64,000 bases of DNA from Exobasidium rhododendri (Eukaryota > Basidiomycota > Exobasidiomycetes > Exobasidiales > Exobasidiaceae). Of this stretch, positions 21,101 to 27,100 are shown piece after piece (position 1 is the first letter of the stretch; every line of letters starts with the position of its first letter). The translations under genes were made by a program, and so were the position numbers. The notes under the pieces are model-generated. The model was not told the origin of the DNA and did not search any database. It worked only from the letters and a program-made list of their open reading frames with translations. The stretch covers positions 1 through 64,000 of the forward strand of contig CP110633.1 of assembly GCA_026210745.1 (NCBI GenBank). The letters are read 5' to 3'.

Positions 21101-24100
21101 ATCATATTTGTAGAAAATTGACTCCATACTAGGAATCCTAGAATACCAATACTAAACATAGCATAAACCATACCAAGATAACCAAATACTGGTTTACCTG
21201 AAAAAGCAGAGATAATGTGACTAATCATACCAAATCCTGGAATAATTAGAATATAAACTTCAGGGTGCAATTTTTATTTGTAAAAATTTGGACTATATCA
21301 TCAATTTGTTTCATTTAGTCATAAATGCTAGCCATACTTTATGATGGTAACTAGCAGGATCGAAAGCTTTTATATCCCGAAGAGAAAAATACTCTTCGAT
21401 TAGAAAGAATCGATGTGATTTATGACTTCGACAATGGCTGGAAATAAAGTAATCCTTAACCAGAAGAACGTCTTTCCGACTTTGTACGGTTCACTTGTAA
21501 TATCCATTTTGTGAATTATCAAAATAAATATATCCCCCAAATACATTAATATAGTATTGAACATCTTGCATAAGTTTATTAGTAACACTAATTGTCAGTT
21601 GAGGTGTTCCATTTTTCATGTAAAAGCCAATTGTACCATCTGCATCAAAGAATCCCGCAAACCAACTAGAAGAAAAATCAGCTATAATTGGAGAGATAAC
21701 AGGAATACCAAGTTGTTGACACACTCGGTGTAGTTGTACAAGATGACTGGAATGTCGAATATTTCCATTAATATATTTAAGAAGATTGAGCATACCAAGT
21801 TTATTATGTAGGCGATAACGATAAGCTTTTGCACCTGATCGCATTTTAATACCACCACCTAGCATATTTTGAATATAACGGAGAAGGGGCAGATCCTCTA
21901 GTCCCATAGTAATTTCAAGAGATGTGTATCCTTGTTTACTTACTAGTAGACTTCCGTCTCCGTCAATAACACCTGCCAGCCATTGACCGAAAGAATTAGA
22001 ACAAATTGCTGCGCGTGTAGTCTCTGAGGTTCCTACTAGACTGCTGCTAGAGCGTCGTTGGTTACCTGCTGATTCAGTCTTAAATACCACATTTTTACTA
22101 GTAAGGGATCCTATAAATACAATAGTGCCACTGACATAACTAGTAGTGATATCATTAAACAGACTGTTCCAGCATATAGCGCAGTGCGTAATCAGACTAA
22201 AATCTGAAAAGGGCCACTGTTGACCAAAGAACCAAAATAGATGTTGATATAGTACAGGATCTCCACCTCCTGCGGGGTCATAAAATGAAGTATTGAAGTT
22301 TCGATCTGTTAGAAGCATAGTAATAGCTCCGGCTAGTACAGGTAGTGATAGTAGTAGTAGAATAGCAGTAACCATCATGGCCCATACAAAAAGTGGTAGT
22401 TTATGTAGAGTTATTCCAGGGTTACGCATGTTTAGAATTGTAGTAATGACTTAAAAATTATTGACCTTATCTTTCGATAAGGGTTGGACTATACCTTCAC
22501 AATATGCGATATTAACGTATATTGTGTATCACGTGTAGTCTCTGAGGTTCCCCTACTAATAGAGTGTTTTAGGTAATTTTATTTATTTACATAATATAAT
22601 TGTCTACTATAATAATAACTCAATGGTAAGCCTTTATAAAGAAAAAAAAATGTTTAAAAATGTTTATTGGTTTGGATATGATTGAAATTCGGTAGGAGTA
22701 GACCCACCTTCCGCGGGAGTGACAGAGTCTGGTACCCGGCCTTGAAGTTTATCCTCAATGGCACCAATACCAGTACCTACAAGTTGAGCGACACTATCGG
22801 CGACGAGTTTTTCCCGCGGACTTAGGTTATCCGTTAGAGGCGCTACAAGATCCTTCGCCTTTTCACCGTAGGAATATGCGCTAGGATAATAACTTCTATG
22901 TTGTTCAAGCTGCTCATTAAAGCCTTTAAGAGCATTATTTACTTCTTCGAAAAAGGCAGTAACCGGTCCGGATCCAGATCCAGATTCAGATCCAGATCCG
23001 GGTTGTGCTGCCGACATAAAATCTAGGAACGCGGAGCTCATATTAAAATAAATAAAAGCACTTTCTCCTGTAGATGCATGCACTCAGTCCGTCTAGTAGC
23101 GAAATAGCAGCCTATACATTTATTTGGATTAGTGCAATTATAGCTGGGTAAAAGAGTATCGATAGCACCCAAACTGTTGCTGGAATAACACAAATAATGA
23201 GAAATTTGTAGGGTCTGTTCCAAATGCGATAATAATGTACACCAATAAAAATAAGAATAGTTGCAATCATACTTTTAGACACGAAAAACATAGGGTTGGT
23301 AATAAGTATAGTCATTGCTATCGTGGCAATAAGCCCATAGAACACTGTACGGCTAACTAGCGTATTACCAGGATAATATTTTCTAGAGCAATAGATTAGG
23401 ATAATAGTAGGCATGATTTTTATACTAAGAATTTCCGGAAAATAGAAAAAAGCGGCGATAAGGGGGTGAGAAACAGTACCAATTCAACCATAATCCCAAG
23501 CATTATCAGTGACATCTTGCATAATAATAGGCAGTGCTACCATCAGAAAAATGTGGTAAATAAGGGTTGCCCAAACGAATACAGGAACCTCAGATATTCT
23601 GATATAATTTATATATATTACTATTGTAATTATGACTTAGGATATATTAACCTTATCTTTCGATAAGGGTTGGACTATACCTTCACAATAGACGATATTA
23701 ACATATATTGTGTATCACGTGTAGTCTCTGAGGTTCCTCTACTAATAGAGTGCTTTGGGTACTTTTATTATTTTAATAATTCACAATAAATCAACTATAG
23801 CTAAGTATTGTATGGCTATATTTTTATCCTCTTTTACAAGTGGATAATAGAGTAAAATACTATGACCCCATTAGTTAATAGGAAAATAAGACATTAGACA
23901 ATGAAAATAGTGCCTCTTTAAGCGGAATGTTTTTTTAGATAAAATACTATAATAATTAGTACCTATAACGGTCTATTATGATAGGGTTACCTGCTGATTG
24001 TCCAATCTCTGCAGATTTTCACGAGCAAGGTTGTTGCTACGTACCAAGAGCTCTAAGGAGTTTCCAGCATATAGTGATATTTTTACATGAACCTCAATGT

Positions 24101-27100
24101 TAAATTCATGGCACCTAGCATTGATGAAATACCAGCTAGATGCAGACTAAAAATGGCAAGATCAACTGATCCACCTGAATGACTTTGTAGTGATGATAGT
24201 GGAGGATACCAAAAAGAACACTAAACTATTGTGAGTGAAGTGTTCATCCATCATTCTCATAATGGGTTGGACTATACCTTCATTTAATCTAACTTAAAAT
24301 AAGCTACTAGTAACTTAATTTTTCTTGCTTAAATTCTTTATCTAGACGAATAGATCTAATATTTCGTATTAGTTCTCGTGTTTTGCATAGAGTAGCATAA
24401 TCTGATGATCCACGTTTTTTCGTGAAAGAACGTGCTCAAATACGATATTCTAGAGATTTTATACCTTTCATTGTTTTAAAGTAATAATTTACAATAGTAT
24501 CAATATCTTTTTTACCAACAGCAATCACTGTAAAATATGTTTTTTTAGTAACAACCCGAAGATCTAGAATTATTGCAATTCCTTCCAGTACAATACGATC
24601 TAGTTTTTGTGTTATTTCAAAAGCATGTACTAGTCGTTGCGGTCCTTTTTGAACAAGGTAAAAACTACCTTCTGCTTCAGTGAACCCAATAATCCAAGAT
24701 TTAGATATAATGAGAAGAACATTAGTAATTGTTAGAATATTTATATCGATTGTAAACCAAACAGGTGAAATATAATTAATTGGTATAGATTTTTCTTTAA
24801 TAGCAAAAATTAGTCGATCTTTTTCTTCTTTAGATAGAGAAGAACTATTTATAATAAGAATAGCTTCTCGGAATTTAGCATAGTTAAAGTATTTGCTAGT
24901 AAGTAGTGGATACTTGTCAAAAATAGGCAGAATAACTTCAATAATATGTTTAATGTTACGAACTCTAAATTCAGCAGTGTTGCTTTTATCTTTTGTAACA
25001 GAGATAGAACCTACTCCGACAATTTTTTTAATATAGTAAAGTAGGCGTAGATTATAATTACTTTGACCAATTTTAAATGAAAATGTTCAAACATCTTTTT
25101 TAGTTTTACCAAAGTAAAATGTTCCATCCCCATCTGTAACACCTACAAGCCATTGAAGATCTTCTGGACTCTTTTTAGTACTTATACGATTAAATGCACT
25201 ACGTGTAGTCTCTGATGGATTATTCGATTTTAGATTAATAAAACCAATGAAATATAGAATATTATTCATAAATGCAGTAATTATATCTTTCATAAAATAT
25301 AGTAGTGTATAATAAATAATCCAGGCGGATTGTCCCCATGTTGATGACTTTTTTACATTATTAACAGGATAATAAGTATTCATCTCCGAATAGAGGAGTT
25401 TCCCGCATCGAGTAGTGTTTAGTATAATTGCAAAACTTTCAAATAGAATAGCAATTAGTGACAGCATATCCATTGAAATATAGAAGTTTACTGTCCATCC
25501 TGTTCCTGCTCCTTGTTCAAGAAACGCACTAGCTAGTAGTATAATTAGTGAAGGAGGTAGGAGCCAGAAAGAAATGTTATTTAGCCGAGGAAATGCCATC
25601 AATTATATTAATTGTAGATTGTTTATTTCTACTCCTCCTATTTATTGTAGGAGGTTCAGACTATATCATCATACTACATTAAATTATTTATAGTATGTAG
25701 GGTACTCGTGGAAGAATTATTGTTAGCATATACTCATCTTCTAGTCGTTGAACGCATTTTCTATTGTATTTACTGCTTTAGAAAAGTACGCTACAGGTTT
25801 TCTCTAGTTAAAAGATGTCCCTGTAATTCTCCCTATGAATATCTTTATAAAAAGATAGGACCGACAACCACATAAATTATCCTTAATTGTAAAGGCTTCT
25901 TATTAAAGGGGAGTATAAAGTTAGTGATTAATAAGAAGAAAGTTTTTCTAGGTGACTCCAATCAAAATCTGTACGTTTTCTGTTTATCATTTGTTTTAGG
26001 TGTGTAATCTTTTCTCGCCCCACATCTGTAATATGCTCATTAGCTAGCATTATAACATAAACTTCATGCCATACTAGATAATTGTTATATTTAGAAGTAA
26101 AGAGTGGAAAAGTAGAAAGATAATTAACTAGAATAGAAAGTTTAGCAGGGCTAGTACTTGACACTACAAAATATTCCATGCCATTATTATGTCGAGTAGT
26201 ATTTAGCGTAACATGTAGAACATTTGAAATAGATTGTAGAATAGAAAAGTAAGATGCACCTGTAATGGGATCTGTTATACGTTGTTCCAGACGAACTCGA
26301 ATCTCCACACGATTCTTTCCTGTACCATCTGCAGCTTTTGTACGAACTTTAACATCAAATGAACCATCCGCATCGAGAAAACCTGCTAGCCAGGCATTGT
26401 CCAGTAGATGGCTAACGTCAAGAGGTAGCAGAGTATCCGTACTATACCCTTGGTCGACCAGCCACAGTACCAGTGAATTGAATTTATCGATCTTAGGAGT
26501 TCGTAGTAGGCCGTTGATCATGGATACTACGTGACAAAGACCTTTAATAGAACTGATAGTTAGAACATAGGCATGATTTTCCGGCTTATGTCGAATACTA
26601 CCTCCTAGTCTTTGTTTTAGTTGTAGTACTATTTTATAATCAGAGTCGGCAAAGGTAATAGAAAAATGAGGAGTATAACGTTTACCAGAAGGCGCATGAG
26701 TACTTTTAGGCATTCAAATATGTCCATCACCTTCTCATAGACCAGCGAGATAGGCATTAAATTTAGATTGATTGGATACGCTAGAATAACATTTTTCATT
26801 AATGTGGTTATCTTTAGGATCCGGAGCTCCAACCATAACTGGTACAAGGTAGTTACCAAAACCCCCAACCATTGCTGGCATCCGATTGCAATGTGACCTA
26901 TTGTTTCCAATGGTTCGGAGTGCATCTTTATCCTACTAGTTATAACTAATAGGATATCTTACGTACACTTCTCTGAGGATCCCATCGATTTACTATAATT
27001 AGAAGTAAGATGGTTTCCTGCTGATTGCCCAATACAAATAATGTTACTGATTCAGAAAAACTCTTTAATTTATAATAATTAATTTATTCTATCTAGTTTA

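Follow-up and report, generated by a model that had tools for sequence, protein, structure and literature searches.

The use of alternate 3' splice sites in group I introns, credited to Sellem and Belcour in 1994, is cited in two papers (PMC3073962 and PMC7902536); such use in mitochondrial group I introns, with a 'splicing-mediated core creep' in Ophiostoma among the cases, is covered in citations and passages of these and a third (PMC12308204). A second described system is formed by the gene hybrids of Glomus sp. and Allomyces mitochondrial DNA (mtDNA), in which, according to the passages that deal with them, atp6, atp9, cox2, and nad3 carry a second C-terminus (PMC3630166). Here we describe intron 4 of the mitochondrial cox1 gene in a 64,000-nt stretch of Exobasidium rhododendri (assembly GCA_026210745.1, contig CP110633.1, positions 1 to 64,000; hereafter the window), where the 5' half of a group I intron is followed by two 3' halves, the first of which leads into an alternative exon in frame with exon 4. 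Based on the features of this locus, we lean toward the view that cox1 has a translated, splice-dependent alternative end, reached through alternative group I splicing, that would yield a second membrane protein. Among the matches listed in the open-licence literature, we found no cox1 in which duplication of an intron half is followed by an alternative 3' exon.

Intron 4 and its two 3' halves

The cox1 intron 4 lies on the minus strand at 24102-22450, with a single-copy 5' half (24102-23781) and a 3' half that occurs twice, as a proximal (23780-23636) and a distal (22595-22450) copy. The duplication reported in the first-pass annotation, with copies about 1.18 kb apart, was confirmed: 23780-23623 and 22595-22437 are 89.3% identical over 159 nt (E 4e-55), 98 of 102 positions are identical in the core, and the acceptors, each between TAAG and TCAT, fall at 23636/23635 and 22450/22449, a spacing of 1,186 nt. 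The flanks of the duplicated core are 56-66% identical by forced global alignment; as AT-rich sequence gives such values anyway, the contrast between flank and core is not pressed as evidence of selection. A self-BLAST of the window (E 1e-6) revealed no further case in which intron halves are duplicated next to each other.

Motifs were located by exact match and pairings were assigned by eye. The 5' half contains the P1 guide (24093-24086), a P3 strand within 24080-24074, the P box (24071-24064), and the Q box (23999-23990), with the P and Q boxes each occurring once, and the R box, the P8 strands, the S box, and a GAAA-capped P9 occur in each 3' half (proximal: R 23733-23714, S 23684-23672, P9 23668-23651, terminal G 23636; distal: R 22547-22528, S 22498-22486, P9 22482-22465, terminal G 22450). 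P1 is formed by the end of exon 4, CATGAATT, and the guide GGTTCATG, and the pairings of P3 (ATCAC/GTGAT), P7 (GACTA/TAGTC), and P10 (TCA/TGA) are identical for both halves. The features expected of a group I intron were all found, namely P, Q, R, S, P3, P7, P9, the terminal G, and a U before the 5' splice site. Against the Rfam model Intron_gpI (RF00028), the distal half scored 43.0 bits (E 3.8e-9) and the proximal half 42.7 bits (E 5e-9). Because the motifs are present in both copies and the Rfam scores are nearly equal, either 3' half could supply what the single 5' half needs to form a ribozyme. The distal half must serve for normal COX1.

The alternative exon and its relative

The alternative exon (23635-23112, minus strand) follows the proximal acceptor and consists of two bases that finish a split codon, 173 codons, and a TAG stop (23114-23112). 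Its phase is that left by exon 4 (24209-24103, minus strand, by exon reconstruction), which is common to both products and ends on one base of the split codon. The claim of an open frame in this phase thus stood, as 173 sense codons plus the stop, and the chance of an open frame this long is about 3e-4 at this base composition. Joining exons 1-4 to 23635-23112 yields an in-frame product of 337 aa, and joining the eight cox1 exons yields a COX1 of 528 aa, both as originally proposed. The first in-frame ATG of the alternative exon is at 23543 and an in-frame TAA is found upstream of the exon at 23639-23637, just inside the intron; therefore, the part before this ATG would be translatable only via splicing or a non-ATG start.

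When 5.8 billion proteins were searched and 118 candidates scored, one match to the alternative part emerged: P0001, a 203-aa protein from a 1,088-bp contig whose source, 'lgn', was taken as Logan. The two are 52% identical over 161 aa with no gaps (E 1.3e-45). P0001 opens with MRNPGMTLHKLPLLVW, almost the sequence with which exon 5 of the window's COX1 begins, and it matches that COX1 at E 1e-8; through this canonical exon-5 start, the domain is linked to an identical position in cox1 in a second source, and the start of P0001 at this Met suggests that an intron may end just upstream there too. In the window, 7 of 20 residues upstream of the first ATG are identical to P0001 (P ~6e-4, for a segment picked after the alignment had been seen). 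When the two sequences were joined end to end as one protein query, the hits were P0001 itself and six proteins carrying a COX1 Pfam domain, the latter matching over a small part.

Relationship of the alternative end to COX1

The first-pass annotation had described the alternative end as aligning with cox1 exons 5-6 at low identity, which did not hold as worded, the window part alone matching its own COX1 at a BLASTP E of 0.07. When a profile of the alternative part and P0001 was compared with three COX1 sequences, the E value was 1e-9 over the whole and 2e-5 from VPVFVW on, and no COX1 signal was found after helix V (E 0.3), so that by sequence comparison a COX1 origin can be detected for about 37 residues only, those of the exon-5 start and helix V. 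As had been noted, the alternative part lacks the His and Tyr of HPEVY and the His-His pair, together with the later His pair; the 337-aa product thus has neither the CuB ligands nor all of the haem ligands that COX1, as a haem-copper oxidase subunit I, requires. Hydropathy defined nine segments in the isoform and ten, two of them overlapping, in COX1, and since it found only ten there, the method undercounts.

We consider it rather unlikely that the spliced alternative part represents a complete, highly diverged COX1 C-terminal segment spanning helices V-IX. Apart from the similarity in helix V, this idea draws on the full-length profile alignment, which sets FPEI on HPEV (the aligner's choice, with no independent significance), and on the score of the two-sequence profile against COX1, 20.3 bits where the best of 2,000 shuffles reached 8.6, a result that rests largely on the start. 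Set against these are the loss of signal after helix V and the result that, from residue 17 on, P0001 gave no COX1 match below E 0.8 by BLASTP. No Pfam family was matched by the window part at E 10 or by P0001 at E 1, no PDB entry was matched by the alternative part at E 10, and an AlphaFold2 model built from the two sequences (pLDDT 48.9, pTM 0.26) was too poor for use. A COX1 N-terminus followed by an unknown multi-helix domain would fit these results better than a diverged COX1 C-terminus, a description that survives for the exon-5 start and helix V and fails for the rest.

Codon usage as a sign of translation

The near-absence of UUA and UUG (UUR) provides an internal translation test for any frame of this mitogenome. 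Seven slices of core genes contained 0 UUR codons against 323 CUN, an eighth slice (cob5, out of frame) having been left out of these counts; cox1 contained 0 against 64. Four of the six slices of intron open reading frames (ORFs) were without UUR, with two such codons in one of the others and one in the last. The only tRNA-Leu found by ARAGORN, a search that can miss a tRNA, in the window as well as in L002 and L003, sequences that jointly span the circle, has the anticodon UAG, and it may be that UUR codons are hardly read at all here. No UUR-free fungal mitogenome was found among the matches listed in the open-licence literature.

The alternative frame contains 0 UUR against 14 CUN, and the other two frames of the same stretch contain 20 and 14 UUR. 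By shuffling within codon positions, the absence of UUR had a P of 0.001 for the whole alternative frame and 0.0044 for the part after the first ATG. Given the avoidance of UUR in the ordinary genes, an alternative frame free of UUR looks translated. A census of open frames of at least 100 codons found 13 of 59 to be UUR-free, among them the alternative frame and the neighbouring orf139; the frames in this census run from stop to stop, so a real gene preceded by non-coding sequence may include a few UUR codons. The single TGA in the alternative frame, at codon 50, aligns with a Trp of P0001. In-frame TGA as apparent Trp was seen in nad4 (codons 49 and 435) as well as at this codon of the alternative exon, and the only tRNA-Trp found (4309-4380, plus strand) was read by ARAGORN as having the anticodon CCA.

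The tail of P0001 and orf139

The orphan frame orf139 (23083-22664, minus strand, ATG at 23041) contains 0 UUR against 9 CUN (P 0.056). No homologues were found for it among 20 candidates, and its best matches were at E 0.024 in Pfam, below the cut-off, and at E 0.9 in PDB. The best alignment of the last 43 residues of P0001 with the window continues past the TAG of the alternative exon and moves by +1 into orf139; its score of 39 was matched in 0 of 300 shuffles. The post-stop part of this alignment has a score of 30, which 8 of 500 shuffles reached, and without a change of frame the separate likenesses are weak (reached in 28 and 36 cases out of 500). To a modest degree, this supports the view that orf139, at least in its opening part, goes back to the tail of a P0001-like protein, which here is either split, with orf139 as its second frame, or belongs to a unit that has begun to decay. 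A single programmed frameshift joining the alternative exon to orf139 was considered and rejected, the +1 frame being closed by a stop after the TAG.

The same alignment bears on whether the whole unit is a relic, in which a P0001-like assembly of 3' intron half, alternative exon, and tail, once functional or acquired by homing, would now be decaying, with either half spliced and the short product useless. In its favour are the path of the P0001 tail through a stop and a shift and the occurrence, in the mtDNA of fungi, of foreign ends that mobile elements bring in, as the passages on the hybrids mentioned above describe (PMC3630166). However, the 173 codons are still open and UUR-free though half of the residues differ from P0001, and orf139 is likewise open and UUR-free, so that decay would have to be very recent, and we regard this explanation as improbable. 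Still harder to credit is a free-standing intron gene read from its own start (ATG 23543, 143 aa), with the proximal half not joining exon 4: the ATG is in frame, the part after it holds most of the UUR signal, and intron ORFs are common in this mitogenome, but the likeness to P0001 and COX1 extends upstream of that ATG (in the segment chosen post hoc), P0001 has the canonical COX1 start, and the phase fits exon 4.

Proposed mechanism

In the reading that we favour, a second end of cox1 reached by splicing, pairing of the 5' half with the distal 3' half would join exon 4 to the canonical exon 5 and give COX1, and pairing with the proximal 3' half, which is transcribed first, would join exon 4 to the alternative exon and give the 337-aa protein. 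This protein would comprise COX1 helices I-IV, a COX1-like helix V, and about four helices of the unknown domain, without the CuB ligands. Its splicing, translation, and function in vivo we infer from the features described above. As a guess, the protein might regulate, or act as a decoy in, the supply of COX1 or the assembly of the oxidase; alternatively, this might be a chimeric gene that acts for itself.

Several observations weigh against the alternative end of cox1 as proposed. Both Rfam scores fall below the RF00028 gathering score of 50, the UUR test is powerless before the first ATG (P 0.12), and the alignment of the P0001 tail past the TAG hints at a longer ancestral frame that has been cut here. 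The search for orthologues that the first-pass annotation had suggested yielded just one relative, P0001, known from protein sequence alone, and no tblastn-confirmed relative in viral_contigs (13 and 54 pattern stretches) or genome_contigs (177 stretches), neither collection being meant for fungal mitochondria.

A more far-reaching form of the proposal, which we put forward tentatively as quite possible and short of probable, is that, through alternative assembly of the ribozyme, a single mitochondrial gene yields two conserved products: COX1 itself, and a chimera in which the first four to five COX1 helices are joined to a new membrane domain. The chimera, which might have a tail or partner of the orf139 type, would act on the assembly of the oxidase or else behave, in a fungus, as a selfish gene of the male-sterility kind, and the choice of 3' half would be a switch on COX1 output. 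The rival readings are partly nested, and the likelihoods that we attach to them and to the favoured reading need not sum to one. If the proposal is true, duplicated ribozyme halves, and not a spliceosome, give one mitochondrial gene two proteins, the second of which is not an intron endonuclease, and group I splicing is linked to the control of COX1 supply.

Mitogenome setting

The window covers most of a fungal-type mitochondrial genome, its VAR1/rps3 match being fungal and the nearest PDB entry to its nad6 being 7zm7, which we take to be from Chaetomium. The remaining cox1 exons, defined by exon reconstruction, are the canonical exon 5 (22449-22223) and exons 6-8 (21267-21121, 19967-19725, and 18615-18136), all on the minus strand, and the reconstructed COX1 had very strong PDB matches, the best at 856.8 bits.

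The full contig (C4, 88,290 bases) overlaps itself with a period near 65,980. Over this 22.3-kb overlap the two copies show 18 gap openings and not one mismatch; the gap openings fall within window 104-3058 or 18044-22294, each at one of the two contig ends. With such gaps in the overlapping parts (window 1-3058 and C4 84024-88273), the first 3 kb of the window may contain small indel errors. A substitution error as the source of the TAG was judged unlikely, with 0 mismatches between the copies; the region itself, at 22.4-23.6 kb, falls just outside the overlap, and an indel error behind the frame change was judged unlikely there, though conceivable. A search for nuclear copies returned one match each for the alternative exon and orf139, both in the mitochondrial contig.

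Elsewhere in the window, tRNA-His (GTG) occurs twice on the minus strand (38754-38827 and 61304-61377; 90% identity, 79 nt). Two hydrophobic orphan frames (44075-44452 and 5745-6185, both minus strand), one of them adjoining the end of cob, had no Pfam match above the cut-off. Short stretches at 26970-27029, 32476-32567, 34528-34658, and 14243-14370 are common to different introns (72-83% over 60-131 nt) and likely represent conserved group I core or related introns.

Comparison with known systems

The first-pass annotation had pointed to the alternative C-termini of Allomyces and Rhizophagus, and the likeness to these gene hybrids holds in outline only. In the hybrids, as the passages concerned describe them, a gene is likewise followed by two alternative 3' ends, one perhaps foreign; the inserted end is a close copy (91% amino acid identity for atp6), in atp6 it supplants the native end, and a homing endonuclease frame lies beside it (PMC3630166). 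In contrast, most of the extra end of cox1 in the window has no relation to COX1, and the native end is preserved in full. It is not a functional homologue of the native end, its likeness to COX1 stopping with helix V and HPEVY and the His-His pair being absent, and no endonuclease domain was found by Pfam in either frame of intron 4.

Alternate 3'-splice-site use is a closer mechanistic precedent than the Allomyces and Rhizophagus/Glomus C-termini. The 1994 work of Sellem and Belcour was reportedly on Podospora. Those introns share with the locus described here a single group I intron with more than one acceptor and a frame within the intron that splicing attaches, or here would attach, to the exon before it. 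The frame fused in such introns is an intron ORF, whereas in cox1 intron 4 the first acceptor is preceded by a whole second 3' ribozyme half and followed by a membrane-protein frame that opens like the next exon of its host. The fused frames of alternate 3'-splice-site introns are generally of the endonuclease type. Some chimeric genes associated with cytoplasmic male sterility in plants contain a piece of cox1, and they resemble the alternative product in that the start of COX1 is joined to an unknown membrane domain in mtDNA; in plants, however, the chimera is a separate gene, whereas here the two parts are predicted to be joined by splicing.

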